Source: a virus. From it: a stretch of DNA of 60,868 bases. The stretch covers positions 1 to 60,868 of the IMG/VR virus record IMGVR_UViG_3300035670_000219; one strand, written 5' to 3'. Numbering within the stretch: position 1 is the first letter of the stretch; every line of letters begins with the position of its first letter. Positions 2,906 to 44,495 of this stretch are shown here, piece by piece. The notes under the pieces are model-generated. The model saw only the letters and a program-made list of their open reading frames with translations. It was not told the DNA's origin and did no database searches. The translations under genes were made by a program, and so were the position numbers.

Positions 2906-3819
2906 GGTCTATTTGTTAAAGGTACAAAAATTTCTGGGAAACGATCTGTTTCCTGGTGTTGAGCATTCCAAGCTGTTTGCCATGCAAACAATGAATGGTC
3001 GTGTACAGTATCAAAATAAGAGTCGTCACCAACATCGCATAAAATACCAAAAGCGTCAGTAGAAGTAACAACGCCTCCAATAGCTAGAATGCTTGTATCA
3101 GGAACTGTTACAGAGCCTGTTGAGCCAATTACAAATGGCGTTACAGTTGCGACATACAGATTAGAAGGTAGCGTAACATCAGTCAACACAGGGCTGATTA
3201 AACCTGCTGTTTCTTGTCCAGATTCTTGAAGAACAATACTCCTATCATCATCCTCTAACTCAAACAGAACTTCTGTTTCTGGAAACTCAACGACAAGACC
3301 AACTTCGTAATCAACGGGCTCATTTCTTGTAGAAGAAACACAAATTAAATAAGAGCCTTTTGATAAAGGATAATAACGTTGATCTCCTAAATCTAAACGT
3401 AGCTGCGTAAACTGATTGTATAAACTTGACTGTGCAGCCATTACCGTATCTAAATACGGGAAATAAACTTCACCATTTTGTTTTGTACCAAAAGGAACCG
3501 AGTCTTCTTGAAAGAGAGAGCGTCCTTCTATTGGAATTTTGTTTAAATCGTAAGCAGATATTTGTATGTACTGCGGTTTAGGTGGACCTTTTGTAGCAAT
3601 AATCCAAGCAGGAGAATCAAGTTTAATAACAAACCAATGATTGTAAGTTCCTCCTCCATAACCCCCATTTGATTGTTGAGACGTGTCTGATCTGCCAACA
3701 ACTTTATACTGAGGTCCCAGAGAACCTTTCAGATACCGTAAAGATGTATAGGAAAAAGTACCTAAATTTAAAGGGTTATTTTGTGTTCTTTGTTGTTGAC
3801 CTACAGAATTACGCGCCAT
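2902..3819 (-). CDS. Putative virion protein
   Basis: 305 aa, beta-rich, low Lys, with Gly/Ser/Thr/Gln-rich N-terminus. The pattern resembles phage structural or fibre-type proteins (many V/T/S strands, no catalytic motif), but I do not recognise a family. It lies on the minus strand beside small genes, away from the plus-strand morphogenesis block. Its start overlaps the end of the upstream HNH-like gene by 11 nt. Confidence 0.55.
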   Translation of the reverse strand: MARNSVGQQQRTQNNPLNLGTFSYTSLRYLKGSLGPQYKVVGRSDTSQQSNGGYGGGTYNHWFVIKLDSPAWIIATKGPPKPQYIQISAYDLNKIPIEGRSLFQEDSVPFGTKQNGEVYFPYLDTVMAAQSSLYNQFTQLRLDLGDQRYYPLSKGSYLICVSSTRNEPVDYEVGLVVEFPETEVLFELEDDDRSIVLQESGQETAGLISPVLTDVTLPSNLYVATVTPFVIGSTGSVTVPDTSILAIGGVVTSTDAFGILCDVGDDSYFDTVHDHSLFAWQTAWNAQHQETDRFPEIFVPLTNRP

Positions 3820-4876
3820 CTCCCACTACATAACACATTTGTTCTTCATCATAATCGAGGTTGTTTTTTAGTAAATGAGGATGCTGTATCGTTGCTTTGA
3901 ACTGACTTTGAACGATGGGATTAAAAGGCAGATCAACAGAAGAATTAAACGAATGCATCAGTTTTTTAGGATCAAAATCAATAACAAACGGCATTGGCAT
4001 CGCTGGTGGATGTAAACGATTCCAAGAAGAAAATAAATGTAATGGATTAACACACTTTGGGTTGCGGCAAGCACGAGTAACAAATCCACTGCCTATATCC
4101 CCCCAGGTACATTGGTAAATTAATTTATGCGGCGTAACATTTGCGGTAACGGTATCCGAATAGTACGAACGGTAAGAAGGCATTTTTATGCGTTTATTTA
4201 TTGATAAGCGAATCTCCCAGCAATCCTGGAACTCACCAACACAAACTTTTGACCAAAGCTTGGAATATCGATTTCTATATTTTGGTTCCAAATAGTTGAG
4301 GTCAAACCCACAAATATTGCTATTTATTTTCTGTACGCAGTGATAACACCAATGTTTCGACTGATCTCGAATTGTATGACCATGTACACAAACGTAGCCA
4401 CGATAGTAACCATGCTTGGCAAGTTCTTCTTTTGATAAGTCTTCAATATTCGCAACAAAACGGAATTCAGTTGGTGAATTCAAAGAAGGTAACAGTTGCT
4501 TTTGATTTTTGTTTTGTCGTTTTGTAAAAGTGTTTTTAAGCTGAGAAGGGCCGTTACCTGTGGGAATGCGTTGTTTTAGTACCAATTCTTTTCTGTTGTC
4601 CCTGGGCATTTCGTTTGGATTTTTGTGAATGACATCCGCCGTTCCCGGATCTTCACCAGTACGCAAGTAGTACACCAAACGATGCGCGACGTAAGGAATG
4701 CGGTACAAGAAAACGGTGTAGTAACCGGTGCGTGGGTTGTAATTCCCCGCTGGCTCCCCGGCAGCATGCCGTGTTGACGATTGCTTCCACACCAAACCAC
4801 TGGGAGTGAGGTCAGATAGTTCCAGGAGGGACTGCAGCTCCCACAGAAGCGGAAGCTGACGGTACTCACGCGCCAT
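3809..4876 (-). CDS. HNH-type homing endonuclease-like protein
   Basis: 355 aa. Residues about 15-105 match the N-terminal part of HNH_3-type phage nucleases: SGLVWK, a YN..TGYY strand, then VAHRLVYYLRTGEDPG. The usual 'DHING' core is altered (ADVIHKN), so this copy may be catalytically weak. The middle has HWCYHC and the C-terminal part has ACRNPKCVNPLHL, a second Cys/His site like those of HNH recognition proteins. It follows the repeat-rich gap and overlaps the next gene by 11 nt. Confidence 0.6.
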   Translation of the reverse strand: MAREYRQLPLLWELQSLLELSDLTPSGLVWKQSSTRHAAGEPAGNYNPRTGYYTVFLYRIPYVAHRLVYYLRTGEDPGTADVIHKNPNEMPRDNRKELVLKQRIPTGNGPSQLKNTFTKRQNKNQKQLLPSLNSPTEFRFVANIEDLSKEELAKHGYYRGYVCVHGHTIRDQSKHWCYHCVQKINSNICGFDLNYLEPKYRNRYSKLWSKVCVGEFQDCWEIRLSINKRIKMPSYRSYYSDTVTANVTPHKLIYQCTWGDIGSGFVTRACRNPKCVNPLHLFSSWNRLHPPAMPMPFVIDFDPKKLMHSFNSSVDLPFNPIVQSQFKATIQHPHLLKNNLDYDEEQMCYVVGDGA

Positions 4877-35902: not shown

Positions 35903-35986
35903 TGCGAACAGAGAGGATCGAACTCTCACGACCAAAGGTCAACGGATTTTAAGTCCGTAGCGTCTACCTATTCCGCCATGTTCGCA
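35903..35986 (-). tRNA. trnL: tRNA-Leu (UAA)
   Basis: 84-nt class II tRNA. Acceptor TGCGAAC/GTTCGCA, D-arm GGCGGAATAGGTAGACGC, anticodon arm ACGGA CTTAAAA TCCGT (anticodon TAA), long variable arm, T-arm GAGAG TTCGATC CTCTC. No CCA encoded. Canonical and probably functional. Its first 19 nt overlap the 3' end of the upstream protein gene. Confidence 0.92.
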
Positions 35987-40898: not shown

Positions 40899-40927
40899 GG
40901 TTTGAGTTGAGTAAGGTTTGCAGTTGT

Positions 40928-40964
40928 CCTGGGGCTTACACCACGTACTTATGTGGATGCCCAG
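40928..40964 (-). promoter_or_regulatory. Family I element, copy 3
   Basis: Minus strand: CTGGG CATCCAC ATAAGTAC GTGGTGTAAG CCCCAG. Inner stem CCAC/GTGG, outer CTGGG/CCCAG. 30 nt before ATG 40898. Confidence 0.65.
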
Positions 40965-40975
40965 TTTAGTTGGTG

Positions 40976-41323
40976 CTACTTCATGTATAAATAGCCGCCT
41001 GCCCAGTCGGCATTATGCAGACAGGTCTCATATGATACGTCGTCAAGCAAATTGTAACGGACATGTTTGGCTGGCGCCTTCCATGAAGCAGGTTTGTAGA
41101 CAGCACCTGATTGTCTGTGGATAAAAGCATGGACACTGCCATGTTCAGTACCTAAGCCATTACGCTTGAGGTTACGCTGAATAAGCTTGTAATACTTCGT
41201 ACCACGAACAACATCAAAGACAAGGTCGTTGCTGTGATAGTTCTTGTTGTAGTTCTCAGTAAGCTTATCGATTAATGCATCGATGCGTGCTTCGAGAACT
41301 TGGATGTGTTCATCGAGCTTCAT
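40976..41323 (-). CDS. Hypothetical protein
   Basis: 115 aa, MKLDEHIQVLEARIDALIDK, coiled-coil-like start, then FDVVRGTKYYKLIQRNLKRN and a basic middle. Start overlaps the upstream gene by 14 nt. Unknown. Confidence 0.5.
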   Translation of the reverse strand: MKLDEHIQVLEARIDALIDKLTENYNKNYHSNDLVFDVVRGTKYYKLIQRNLKRNGLGTEHGSVHAFIHRQSGAVYKPASWKAPAKHVRYNLLDDVSYETCLHNADWAGGYLYMK

Positions 41324-41513
41324 TAACTTTCTCCTGGATAGGTTGAGGATTGAGTTGCGTCATATCAACACCTAGCAGTGAACTGGCGGTGATGGTGGCG
41401 ATGATGATGGAGAAGAGAGCAATGGCAATAGACCAACGGCGATTCTCATGAGACTCACCATAAGAATCCATTGTGATGTACTTGCCTCTTCCCATGGAGT
41501 AGATGGTCTTCAT
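41310..41513 (-). CDS. Small membrane protein
   Basis: 67 aa. Span IAIALFSIIIATITASSLL at about 29-47, polar N-terminus with MGRGKYITMDSYGESHENRR, short outer tail. Unknown. Confidence 0.5.
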   Translation of the reverse strand: MKTIYSMGRGKYITMDSYGESHENRRWSIAIALFSIIIATITASSLLGVDMTQLNPQPIQEKVNEAR

Positions 41514-41514
41514 A

Positions 41515-41787
41515 TCAGTTGGTCTCTAGGATGTAACGGCAAGCAATGTAGTCTTGGTCAGGGAGTGAAACAGGGTTACCTTGTTCGTATGAACCGTAGG
41601 TATCCACCCACTGACCATCAATCAATACATCGAGACATTCAAAGTATGCATCGATGTATTCACGTGCTTGTTCTGTAAGTGCTACCCAATGAAGGTAACA
41701 CTCACTCGTCTTGCAACTGATGTAATAGTCATCGATCTTAAACATCGCAATAGCTTTGTCAAGATCTTCTTTGCCGACGGTTAACAT
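41515..41787 (-). CDS. Hypothetical protein
   Basis: 90 aa, MLTVGKEDLDKAIAMFKIDD, then aromatic-rich helices. Follows family III copy 1, 25 nt upstream of ATG. Unknown. Confidence 0.5.
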   Translation of the reverse strand: MLTVGKEDLDKAIAMFKIDDYYISCKTSECYLHWVALTEQAREYIDAYFECLDVLIDGQWVDTYGSYEQGNPVSLPDQDYIACRYILETN

Positions 41788-41811
41788 GGTGTCGTAACGA
41801 TGGATTGGTTG

Positions 41812-41862
41812 TGCAGGATATTGAGTCCTGCAGAGAAGGCCCGAAGGCCCTCAGTGCAGAAG
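41812..41862 (-). promoter_or_regulatory. Family III element, copy 1
   Basis: Minus strand order: CTGCA, hairpin GGGCC TTC GGGCC-type stem, TGCAGGA, loop CTCAATA, TCCTGCA. The middle strand can pair either with the upstream CTGCA or with the downstream TCCTGCA. It starts at the previous gene's stop and ends 25 nt before the next ATG. Confidence 0.65.
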
Positions 41863-42102
41863 TCAGTCCTCATGCTTGCGTTCCCAACGAAGCAGCTCTC
41901 GGTTGAGATCTACTTTACGTTGGAGTACAACGCAGAACGGCATGAGATCTTGGTAATCACGCATGCCATCCTGCCATTGGAAAAAGATCTCGAGAGCAGC
42001 TTGACGCTGCGCCTCAAGTTCTTCGTCAATCACAGGGGCATCTCTCCTGGCAAGCAGGCGAGCATCTTGCGTGAGGAGTTGTTCAACAGCTTGGTAGTTC
42101 AT
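41863..42102 (-). CDS. Hypothetical helical protein
   Basis: 79 aa, MNYQAVEQLLTQDARLLARR, all-helical with DEELEAQRQAALEIFFQWQD. Its stop begins family III copy 1. Unknown. Confidence 0.5.
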   Translation of the reverse strand: MNYQAVEQLLTQDARLLARRDAPVIDEELEAQRQAALEIFFQWQDGMRDYQDLMPFCVVLQRKVDLNRELLRWERKHED

Positions 42103-42130
42103 TGAACTAACTTGGTGTCGTGTGGTGTGA

Positions 42131-42193
42131 TGCAGAGCTAAGCCCTGCAGAAACCCCTCATCTCCAATAGGAAATAAGGGGAAAGTGCAGAGA
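42131..42193 (-). promoter_or_regulatory. Family III element, copy 2
   Basis: Minus strand order: TCTGCA, variable hairpin (TTTCCCC..GGGG), TGCAGGG, loop CTTAG, CTCTGCA. Alternative pairing as in copy 1 with compensatory changes. 29 nt before ATG 42102. Confidence 0.65.
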
Positions 42194-42397
42194 TCAGTTC
42201 ACGTACTTACTGTTGATGCAGTAGTACGTATCGCCAAGGAATCCTTGGACGTAGATCAGATTGTGTCCCGGTCTATCGTGGCATGTGGCTTGGTAGTGTT
42301 TGTTGAGAAGCTTCTGCGCTCCAACAGATAGCAGTAGACCCAAGCCAGAACCAAGAATGATAGCCACACAGGAATCACTAAAGCAGTTGGTACGCAT
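42194..42397 (-). CDS. Small membrane protein with Cys-pair tail
   Basis: 67 aa. Span VAIILGSGLGLLLSVGA, then an exposed part with CHDRPGHNLIYVQGFLGD and YYC. Layout like 34439 and 42963. Its stop begins family III copy 2. Unknown. Confidence 0.5.
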   Translation of the reverse strand: MRTNCFSDSCVAIILGSGLGLLLSVGAQKLLNKHYQATCHDRPGHNLIYVQGFLGDTYYCINSKYVN

Positions 42398-42399
42398 GA

Positions 42400-42588
42400 T
42401 CAGATGTTGTTCTTAGGAGTAATGACGAATGCCATGTCATTAGGCATGACAAGTGCAGCAGTACGACAACGAATGTCATGTAGCTTAGAGCCAATGTCAT
42501 CCTTGGTAGGTACCTTGGCATTCTCTACTGCGGCTGCAGTATTGACAAGGATGGACGCAATGTTCTTGCGGATGTTGAGCTTGGTCAT
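42400..42588 (-). CDS. Small hypothetical protein
   Basis: 62 aa, MTKLNIRKNIASILVNTAAA, helix then AFVITPKNNI. Two bases after its stop the next gene starts. Unknown. Confidence 0.5.
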   Translation of the reverse strand: MTKLNIRKNIASILVNTAAAVENAKVPTKDDIGSKLHDIRCRTAALVMPNDMAFVITPKNNI

Positions 42589-42607
42589 GGTGTCGAATGA
42601 AATGAAT

Positions 42608-42681
42608 AGCAGGCTGAGTGCCTGCAGTAAAACAACCGGGGTAGTACATATATACCACCCCGGAATGTCTTAGAGCAGGAG
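42608..42681 (-). promoter_or_regulatory. Family III element, copy 3
   Basis: Minus strand order: TCCTGC, hairpin CCGGGGTGG..CCCCGG, GCAGGC, loop ACTCA, GCCTGC. 20 nt before ATG 42588 and directly after the preceding stop. Confidence 0.65.
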
Positions 42682-42891
42682 TCAGAAGGGAAGTTCTCCC
42701 ATCAATTGCCAGTAACTATTGAAATCAAGGACAGCCAGCCGAGGAGCTGGGACTTCAGCGCCAAGATCACTCTGCTCTTTCCACTCCTCAGCAAGCTGAA
42801 GAGATTGGGAATGAGCTTCGTCTTCTGTCTTGTGATAGCCAACGATGTAACCGTTGGAAAGCACGATGTAAGAGTTCTTGATCATTGACAT
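42682..42891 (-). CDS. Small hypothetical protein
   Basis: 69 aa from ATG 42891 (MSMIKNSYIVLSNGYIVGYH). Strand-turn-strand start, then KTEDEAHSQSLQLAEEWKE. Resembles small sequence-binding domains but unassigned. Confidence 0.5.
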   Translation of the reverse strand: MSMIKNSYIVLSNGYIVGYHKTEDEAHSQSLQLAEEWKEQSDLGAEVPAPRLAVLDFNSYWQLMGELPF

Positions 42892-42911
42892 GATGTTGAG
42901 TTGGTAGTGGG

Positions 42912-42962
42912 TACAGGATGTTGAGTCCTGTTGAGGGGGCCGTAGCCCCCAGAGCAGGAGTC
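42912..42962 (-). promoter_or_regulatory. Family III element, copy 4
   Basis: Minus strand order: TCCTG, hairpin GGGGGC TAC GGCCCCC, ACAGGA, loop CTCAACA, TCCTGT. 21 nt before ATG 42891. The first base pairs show the same compensatory pattern as the other copies. Confidence 0.65.
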
Positions 42963-43151
42963 CTAGATCTTGTAGCCGTTCGCTACACACCAATCCCTGT
43001 GGATTTGATCGGCATCCTTGGGCCAGTCATGAGTTATGCATTGCTTGGCAGTTGCCTTATCAATGAAGTAACCAGCGACTGGGCCAGCGATGATACCCAT
43101 GGCAAATGCCTGGATAATGATAAGTGCATACATGTTCTGTGCTTTGATCAT
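42963..43151 (-). CDS. Small membrane protein with Cys-pair tail
   Basis: 62 aa from ATG 43151 (MIKAQNMYALIIIQAFAMGI). Span plus GPVAGYFIDKATAKQC and a C-terminal DWCVANGYKI. Preceded by family IV copy A 21 nt upstream. Unknown. Confidence 0.5.
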   Translation of the reverse strand: MIKAQNMYALIIIQAFAMGIIAGPVAGYFIDKATAKQCITHDWPKDADQIHRDWCVANGYKI

Positions 43152-43171
43152 GATCGTGTGGTGTAGATAGA

Positions 43172-43234
43172 TGCCACTGGATTGTGGCAATACTGAAGGC
43201 AGGGTTTGCACCTGCCAATGCCGCTTATACGGAC
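43172..43234 (-). promoter_or_regulatory. Family IV element, copy A
   Basis: Minus strand: CCGTATAAGCGGCATT, hairpin GGCAGG TGCAAAC CCTGCC, then TTCAGTATTGCCAC, AATCCA, GTGGCA. TGCC can pair with the upstream GGCA or the downstream GGCA. 21 nt before ATG 43151. Confidence 0.62.
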
Positions 43235-43516
43235 TCAGTCTTCATCTTGCCAAGCAAGGCGTTCTTGCTCACGCTGACGCATGAACTTGATGATGCCCTG
43301 CAATTCGGCAAGTGTCAGGTAACCGGTTGGGTCACACATGCCTGGAAACCACGCTTCATACGTGGTCTCTGAGCCTGGATCGTTGGCTGCCATTAGTCCT
43401 GAACCCTTGGGTCCAGTGACAATAGAGATTTCGCCAACGAGGCTATCGATGTATACAAGGTGGAAACCACCAGGTACACCAAGATGTTGTACCCAACCAG
43501 TAGTCAGGTCAATCAC
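43235..43516 (-). CDS. Hypothetical protein
   Basis: 93 aa from GTG 43516, preceded by GGAG at 6 nt. Begins VIDLTTGWVQHLGVPGGFHL; C-terminal part YLTLAELQGIIKFMRQREQE is helical. The start was placed downstream of family IV copy B. Unknown. Confidence 0.5.
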   Translation of the reverse strand: MIDLTTGWVQHLGVPGGFHLVYIDSLVGEISIVTGPKGSGLMAANDPGSETTYEAWFPGMCDPTGYLTLAELQGIIKFMRQREQERLAWQDED

Positions 43517-43534
43517 GGGTGTTCTCCGTGTGTG

Positions 43535-43601
43535 CGGTACCCATCTCCGCTGTGGGTAATAACTGGACCAGGGTTTGCACCTGGTCACCCGCTTTAACGG
43601 A
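43535..43601 (-). promoter_or_regulatory. Family IV element, copy B
   Basis: Minus strand: CCGTTAAAGCGGGTGA, hairpin ACCAGG TGCAAAC CCTGGT, CCAGTTATTACCCA, CAGCGGAGA, TGGGT. Same plan as copy A, with all three strands changed together (GGGT-ACCC-GGGT). About 19 nt before GTG 43516. Confidence 0.62.
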
Positions 43602-43832
43602 TCAGTTGTTCTCCAGCATCTCGTCCACGTAGGACTTGATAGTCTGGAGATGGTCGGCAGTAAGTACTTGGCTACGGCCATACTCAAGCAGGTCAAGGAC
43701 CTGGAGCATGACGTTATCGCCAGCTTCCTGCCGGGTTGGTACGCCACACATTTCGAAGATCTCATCACGTGACATCTCAGTGATGTCAACGCAATCGATC
43801 TGACGAACGGTGGCGATGGTGGTGCTGGTCAC
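43602..43832 (-). CDS. Hypothetical protein
   Basis: 76 aa from GTG 43832, preceded by GGAG at about 7-8 nt. Contains VDITEMSRDEIFEMCGVPTR and a long C-terminal helix. An earlier start would run into the family I element. Unknown. Confidence 0.5.
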   Translation of the reverse strand: MTSTTIATVRQIDCVDITEMSRDEIFEMCGVPTRQEAGDNVMLQVLDLLEYGRSQVLTADHLQTIKSYVDEMLENN

Positions 43833-43853
43833 GTTGTTACTCCGTAGGGTGAG

Positions 43854-43887
43854 CTTGGGCTTACACCACTGAAGTGTGGATGCCAAG
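43854..43887 (-). promoter_or_regulatory. Family I element, copy 4
   Basis: Minus strand: CTTGG CATCCAC ACTTCA GTGGTGTAAGC CCAAG. Outer stem CTTGG/CCAAG is a compensatory variant of CTGGG/CCCAG. 22 nt before GTG 43832. Confidence 0.65.
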
Positions 43888-43917
43888 GTCGTGACCGACC
43901 GCCGAGTTGTCTGCTAC

Positions 43918-43940
43918 GTTTAACGTCCAGCTCGACGAGA
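43918..43940 (-). promoter_or_regulatory. Family II element, copy 5
   Basis: Minus strand: CGTC GAGCTG GACG hairpin, then TTAAAC. It stands upstream of family I copy 4 in the same leader. Confidence 0.55.
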
Positions 43941-43965
43941 TGCCTGGGATATAATGTATGTATAT

Positions 43966-43982
43966 CCGACCTCAAAGGTCGG
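43966..43982. other. Short hairpin in the early leader
   Basis: CCGACC TCAAA GGTCGG, perfect 6-bp stem. The region 43887-44228 between genes holds this hairpin, elements of families I and II, and the promoter at 44072; no protein gene is supported there. Confidence 0.5.
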
Positions 43983-44071
43983 GATTAAATATGTAAACAC
44001 CTGGTACAATCCGCTACATTTCTAGAACCTAACGAACTACAGTCAGCGATTCCAAAAATTATAGACCAGAG

Positions 44072-44100
44072 ATTATAGCATAAATACATCCAAAAAGTAC
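44072..44100 (-). promoter_or_regulatory. Sigma-70-type extended -10 promoter
   Basis: On the minus strand TGCTATAAT (extended -10, 44077-44072) with a weak -35 GTACTT 17 nt upstream. It faces the whole early gene chain from 43.8 kb downward and is the best consensus promoter I see in the window. Confidence 0.55.
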
Positions 44101-44228
44101 AGGAATTGGACAAAAGTAGTCAATGAATGTGACACTTTCTGTCCTGGATGTGACAGTTTGTGGGTAAAGAAAGCCTGAGGGCTATAGAAAACTCTGCAGC
44201 TGGTACACTACAGAGCTAAGGATAACCT

Positions 44229-44495
44229 TCACACTTTGTGAATCATGATTGCCTTCAGTCCTTCCTCGGTATGATATACTCTCATGCTTAGCTTATCGCT
44301 TCGCATCTCAAGTAATACCTGAAACAAATACGTCGGTTGACATACTTGCCTAACCTCGGAATAGATAAAGTCGGCTGAACTAAACTCCTCAAGTAACTCA
44401 TTCGCCATCTCCACATAACTGTGGAAAAGCTCTACGTTACTTTCGGTAGGCCGCTCGCCTACCTTCGAACGCCAATCATACTTAACCTTTGTCAT
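44229..44495 (-). CDS. Hypothetical protein
   Basis: 88 aa from ATG 44495 (MTKVKYDWRSKVGERPTESN); acidic helix then strands. An upstream start would add five residues. A hairpin with arms CTACC/GGTAG (44581-44614) lies in its leader; 44511-44728 otherwise shows no gene. Confidence 0.5.
   Translation of the reverse strand: MTKVKYDWRSKVGERPTESNVELFHSYVEMANELLEEFSSADFIYSEVRQVCQPTYLFQVLLEMRSDKLSMRVYHTEEGLKAIMIHKV

Follow-up and report, generated by a model that had tools for sequence, protein, structure and literature searches.

In translational attenuation of the erm and cat type, as in leader-peptide attenuators, a ribosome stalled in a short leader peptide frees a Shine-Dalgarno sequence or a start codon. 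The element described here lies between phage genes and has a central strand, b, that can pair either with strand a before it or with strand c behind it. It resembles these systems in that a ribosome would cover one side of a helix, whose other side would then take a new partner. It differs in that the trigger would be ordinary termination of a full gene, with the stop codon itself paired, and in that we found neither a masked Shine-Dalgarno sequence or start codon nor a short stalling leader peptide. The tna operon leader combines the arrest peptide TnaC with Rho, and there too a ribosome at the stop codon masks the RNA directly behind it, but no alternative hairpin pair of this kind is known to take part.

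Translational coupling by RNA unfolding is described for phage f1 VII/IX, MS2 coat/lysis and Escherichia coli rpmI-rplT (PMC12548453). In those systems the structures cover the downstream ribosome-binding site, whereas both folds of the present element are predicted to leave that site open. A random-library screen cited in the same review correlated structure directly behind a stop codon with poorer coupling (PMC12548453), and this is the position that our element occupies. The motifs manA, wcaG and PhotoRC-II are likewise structured RNAs of cyanobacterial phages, found upstream of metabolic, exopolysaccharide or photosynthesis genes (PMC2864571); they are in Rfam, whereas our element matches no Rfam family.

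Copies in the window and their range among phages

The window, meaning the whole stretch of DNA analysed, is a virus record of 60,868 nt. It encodes a 760-aa virion protein with 75% identity to its counterpart in Synechococcus phage S-EIV1, the only match among named phages in the collection, which places the virus in the S-EIV1-type lineage; the protein is encoded in 44 of the 49 records searched. Elsewhere in the window, an ORF at 55665-56555 matches phrog_38, the large terminase subunit, in its C-terminal part only (positions 442-708 of 760). S-EIV1 has one long gene for this subunit; in the window the region upstream may be disrupted or may lie in a different frame.

On the minus strand of the window, structured spacers separate small early genes. 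Four of these spacers had been predicted to share the order a, variable hairpin, b, short loop, c, beginning at the stop of the preceding gene and ending 20-29 nt before the next start. The sequence bears out the coordinates, the strand order and the placement of all four, with the next ATG about 20-30 nt away, and a covariance model adds a fifth copy that the original prediction lacked (Table 1). The match to copy 5 starts exactly at the stop codon; its core is new, it has no good c, and no gene start follows closely. Window copies fold better than their dinucleotide shuffles (z between -3.6 and -5.9). The predicted energy of copy 1 with UGA and a:b paired is -25.8 kcal/mol; when UGA is left out, a:b (-22.2) and b:c (-21.4) are close. 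Copy 3 prefers b:c over a:b (-38.2 versus -37.1 kcal/mol), and in copy 5 the UGA:UCA helix is part of the minimum free energy structure (-25.5 kcal/mol).

Table 1. Copies of the element on the minus strand of the window, with covariance-model (CM) and folding scores
Copy	Span	Strand	Stop codon	Strand a	Hairpin	Strand b	Behind b	Strand c	CM bits (E)	Fold z
1	41812-41865	-	UGA 41863-41865	TTCTGCA 41855-41861	GAGGGCC-TTCG-GGCCTTC 41835-41852	TGCAGGA 41826-41832	UCA 41822-41824	TCCTGCA 41812-41818	76.9 (2.7e-19)	-4.3
2	42131-42196	-	UGA 42194-42196	CTCTGCA 42186-42192	42154-42181	TGCAGGG 42143-42149	UUA 42139-42141 (one G-U in pairing with UGA)	GCTCTGCA 42131-42138	38.6 (3.3e-8)	-5.2
3	42608-42684	-	UGA 42682-42684	TCCTGCT 42674-42680	long	TGCAGGC 42620-42626	loop ACTCA	GCCTGC 42609-42614	29.9 (1.1e-5)	-5.9
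4	42912-42965	-	UAG 42963-42965, then GA-C	TCCTGCT 42953-42959	GGGGGC-TACG-GCCCCC	AACAGGA 42926-42932	loop CTCAACA	TCCTGTA 42912-42918	54.5 (8.1e-13)	-3.6
5	44166-44231	-	UGA 44229-44231 (88-aa gene 44229-44495)	GGTTATC 44221-44227	present	TATAGCC 44180-44186	UCA 44176-44178		29.1 (1.9e-5)

Two other families of spacers occur alongside these copies. The second family lies at 43520-43603 and 43155-43233 (both minus strand), at positions 3107 of locus L094, 939 and 1216 of L105 and 3429 of L112, and in the isolate S-EIV1 (L176, spacer 4420-4495). It consists of a stop codon, TCCGTnAAGCGG, a hairpin resembling the T arm of a tRNA (CCAGGTGCAAACCCTGG, or GGGGGATCGAATCCCCC in two relatives) and a further hairpin before the leader, whose loop is often ACTCA or AACTCA. 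The third, GGGCATCCACA...GTGGTGTAAGCCC with a conserved AT/TGTAA internal loop, lies at 40925-40980 and 43848-43885 (both minus strand) and again in S-EIV1 (L176, spacers 1712-1817 and 2409-2519).

Three 6-nt strands that can pair in this geometry, G-U included, are found 547 times on the window's minus strand, so that the four triples are weak evidence by themselves. What lies far beyond chance is that relatives repeat the element, keep its register and show covariation. Scanning viral contigs with an exact b-loop-c consensus gave 87 stretches, mostly gene spacers of like layout, and relatives of a protein encoded nearby supplied a second, independent set, in which a, b and c are free of bias from the scan pattern. 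The pattern fixed part of b and c in loci L002-L088; its bias is absent from loci L089 onward and from all cores other than CAGGA. In all, we analysed 135 distinct elements. A search by structure and gene context, with no sequence specified, returned 123 distinct matches, compared with 11, 12 and 15 under decoy pairing rules.

By covariance model, each of the 28 S-EIV1-like metagenome records searched, the window counted among them, holds 2-6 copies. S-EIV1 (KJ410740) holds one, at 42658-42717, located by way of the virion protein and then the model. Two marine records lacking the S-EIV1-type virion protein gave zero copies by the same model. Marine cyanomyovirus relatives of a neighbouring gene also carry no copy, which shows that the gene and the element are not inherited as a unit. 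Exact-pattern scanning of 84,980 cellular genomes or species gave six matches, none in the context of the element and some coding by eye, and blastn of the consensus against named phages gave chance matches to part of the hairpin only. Against Rfam 15 the element reached the gathering score of no family; the sole window match is a tRNA at 35903-35985, and no sub-threshold match in 40900-44100 is credible. The RNA family is thus uncatalogued and, as far as tested, confined to S-EIV1-related phages. As for the surrounding genes, a 115-aa protein of unknown function (phrog_818; 40976-41323, minus strand) is common to marine cyanomyoviruses and, by tblastn, also has matches in about 100 Klebsiella phages.

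The stop codon and the three strands

The original prediction described the architecture correctly and overlooked two features, the stop codon as a strand of the first helix and the absence of c where no gene follows. The a:b helix can run on through the stop codon, as UGA-Y-a7 paired with b7-Y-UCA. An ORF of 30 aa or more precedes 123 of the 135 elements, and in 106 of those 123 strand a starts exactly 1 nt past the stop. That stop is UGA in 112 of the 123, as against 213 of 416 ORFs of at least 100 aa at the same loci. In 103 of the 135, b is followed by a single pyrimidine and a UCA or UUA triplet that can pair with UGA. Where the real stop lies a few nucleotides upstream (for example TCTAACTGACTCC), UGA is still in place in 13 of 16 in-register elements, counted by eye. 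Pairing of the stop codon is supported by this complementarity and retention; UGA is near-invariant, and so offers no covariation.

Copy 5 and 17 further elements with related cores comprise UGA, a, hairpin, b and mostly UCA, with no acceptable c. As 17 of these 18 keep UCA in the absence of a b:c loop, the UCA within the 'CTCA' loop of other copies most plausibly serves to pair with the stop codon. Among 182 distinct matches, a start codon follows every one of the 160 that bear c. Of the 22 that lack c, twelve lack a start codon as well; the other ten comprise three reverse-strand matches, one atypical loop and six with a start-like ORF, which in several cases is not shared by a close sibling. 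The elements without c form one lineage, so that loss of c amounts to one or a few evolutionary events. A palindrome, TGATACGAATTCGTATC, tops the upper hairpin in many loci across core classes (for example L002:1080-1158 and L076:6289-6367) and also occurs in non-coding DNA near elements without c.

About ten b cores were found, among them TGCAGGA, TGCAGAC, TGCAGGG, TACAGGA, AACAGGA, TGCAGGC, TGTAGTC, ACCAGGA, TGCAGGT and TGCAGCC, and a and c change to match, as in the a/c pairs TTCTGCA/TCCTGCA, GTTTGCA/GTCTGCA, CTCTGCA/CCCTGCA, GACTACA/GGCTAC and GGTTGCA/GGCTGCA. With cores AACAGGA, ACCAGGA and TGCAGGC only c follows b in full and a is incomplete, and in the S-EIV1 copy, too, strand a tracks b incompletely. 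Of the compensation that had been claimed for the window in all three strands, copies 1 and 2 show the whole; in copies 3 and 4 strand a compensates only in part, pairing with 5 of 7 positions of b where c pairs with 6.

A lack of covariation, or strands drifting at random in a single phage, would have spoken against the prediction, and the homologues show neither. With strand a taken at a set distance from the stop codon, pairing drops by a z of 12.2 for a:b and 13.0 for b:c when b is shuffled across 107 distinct types. These values overstate independence, because the sequences share ancestry and cores may be passed on as cassettes. In alignment A1, 96.4% of a:b and hairpin cells are paired, against 81.6% after shuffling and about 50% when slid by one column, and both sides change in 12 of 17 pairs; a repeat of the covariation count on covariance-model matches gave the same support. 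Pairing of b with c was counted by register in Python, as the MAFFT alignment leaves c unaligned across loop lengths. Thus the comparative evidence shows both helices to be under selection and mutually exclusive, and the element has the mark of a bistable switch, one strand kept pairing with two others and covariation in both helices.

Gene-strand cells hold 56 G-U and 12 A-C combinations, the reverse of what structure on the opposite strand would give, which identifies the mRNA as the structured molecule under selection. The same tolerance of G-U on the gene strand only argues against a protein- or DNA-binding palindrome, with b:c as operator and a as decoy. The inverted repeat and the frequent CTCAACA loop would suit such an operator, but core and loop sequences vary freely while pairing is kept, and we regard this reading as very improbable.

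The tree of one family of downstream genes implies seven or more changes of core, and before the same gene L112 and L114 carry cores TGCAGGG and TGTAGTC ahead of identical downstream proteins. Whole triples therefore change, or are swapped, as a unit, and elements seem to be exchanged as cassettes. Such different cores before identical proteins, seemingly exchangeable cores and upper hairpins, and the 2-6 copies per genome could also be expected of a selfish or mobile repeat (REP-like or double-hairpin) with no function for the phage. REP or BIME-like repeats would, however, be inserted in either orientation and without a fixed register to genes, whereas strand a here begins 1 nt past the stop in most elements. 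The element lies on the same strand as both flanking genes at fixed distances from stop and start, it loses c where no gene follows, and no copies in both orientations or inside unrelated sequence were found in the genome contigs searched. A mobile repeat is thus highly unlikely.

Two folds and their possible output at the gene boundary

Comparison establishes the two folds, the shared strand b, the fixed registers and, through complementarity and retention, the pairing of the stop codon. In the closed fold, UGA, a mismatched pyrimidine and a would pair with b, a second mismatched pyrimidine and UCA, capped by the variable hairpin; in the open fold b would pair with c, leaving the stop codon and a unpaired. 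Without the UGA pairs, the median gap between the predicted energies of a:b and b:c is 1.1 kcal/mol, and 96 of 135 elements have the two within 3 kcal/mol of each other, a balance that arises partly because b is common to both. These energies describe equilibrium and take neither kinetics nor tertiary contacts into account. When UGA is included, folding of the free RNA predicts a:b in 100 of 106 elements.

The footprint of a terminating ribosome covers the stop codon plus about 10 nt behind it, and the start of strand a falls inside it. Masking the stop codon and 10 nt in silico lets b:c form in 105 of 106 elements; masking abolishes a:b by construction, and the formation of b:c is the informative part. 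We suggest that a ribosome at the stop would cover UGA and a, open the closed fold and let c capture b, and that where no ribosome terminates at the junction the closed fold would re-form. Junction structure would in this way follow whether the preceding gene is translated.

The leader of the next gene constrains what this change could do. From the end of c to the next start is mostly 17-31 nt, with 6% G, and an SD-like motif is present in 17 and absent in 116 of 133 leaders. The original prediction of a translational or termination switch holds for the repeated, exclusive three-strand architecture at junctions, with its covariation, and is not supported for a terminator or start-masking role. 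The element lacks the U-tract that a transcription attenuator has behind its hairpin: in none of 135 elements do the 8 nt after c contain at least six T, and TTTT follows c in four. The alternative hairpins, the terminator-like score of copy 3 in a simple scan and the upper hairpin, whose 3' arm is T-rich in 50 of 135 elements, could point to an intrinsic terminator/antiterminator switch. The T-rich stretch is largely that hairpin arm itself, however, and in one class TCAACAGG follows the hairpin. The sequences mostly refute this reading, and we consider it scarcely credible.

Nor do we think that the element hides the next start. Modelled opening costs of the start region differ between folds by a median of just 0.3 kcal/mol, which gives start-codon masking no support, both folds leaving the region about equally accessible. 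Folding was also used to ask whether c shields the start region by acting as a trap, and for both ideas the effects are too small for a decision. The open start region, the missing U-tract and the G-poor leader, which mostly lacks a Shine-Dalgarno sequence, together argue against a classical attenuator.

A coupling switch of the attenuation type is possible, albeit doubtful. In it, a ribosome ending one gene would change the fold and so promote or hinder de novo initiation at the gene behind it, for instance because the single-stranded leader usable by the 30S subunit would become longer or shorter. Consistent with this, c is present only where a start codon follows and ends about 20 nt before it, and the free, G-poor leader would be about 40 nt in the a:b fold and about 20-25 nt in b:c. 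A ribosome at the stop is predicted to ease opening by more than 0.5 kcal/mol in 39 of 101 start regions, and to make it harder in 8. Against it stand the small median change, neither fold being predicted to hide the start, and the 116 leaders without an SD-like motif. The weaker coupling reported where structure lies behind a stop (PMC12548453) favours a boundary or insulating role.

Processing or stabilization of the mRNA, with hairpins that stop exonucleases, or that RNase III or RNase E cleaves between the genes to yield separate messages, is unlikely. Stable junction hairpins, several with UNCG loops, and the unstructured leader behind them would serve this purpose, and copies without c at gene ends with no close follower would fit 3'-end protection. 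But two independent hairpins would suffice for processing, with no need of a shared b or an exact stop-codon register, and stem lengths differ widely.

On balance, and with moderate confidence from evidence that is computed throughout, we think the element is probably a cis-acting mRNA structure at the gene boundary, with two exclusive folds, toggled by the ribosome and serving as boundary punctuation. Termination of the preceding gene is the likely trigger of the fold change. We propose more cautiously that its output is punctuation or insulation, which would keep b and the rest of the junction off the unstructured leader of the next gene. A fuller version, punctuation of the operon in which the closed fold holds the upstream stop, c is kept only if a gene follows and each terminating ribosome resets the junction, is an attractive possibility that we put forward tentatively.

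The comparative evidence for two exclusive folds tied to the stop codon is unusually clean, and the element occurs several times per phage. Junctions with and without c provide a natural experiment, and S-EIV1, an isolate with a known Synechococcus host and a single copy, makes the proposal directly testable. The element bears on how operon neighbours that lack a Shine-Dalgarno sequence are coupled or insulated. If our reading is true, repeated punctuation would let the boundaries of a phage early operon register the translation of the upstream gene.
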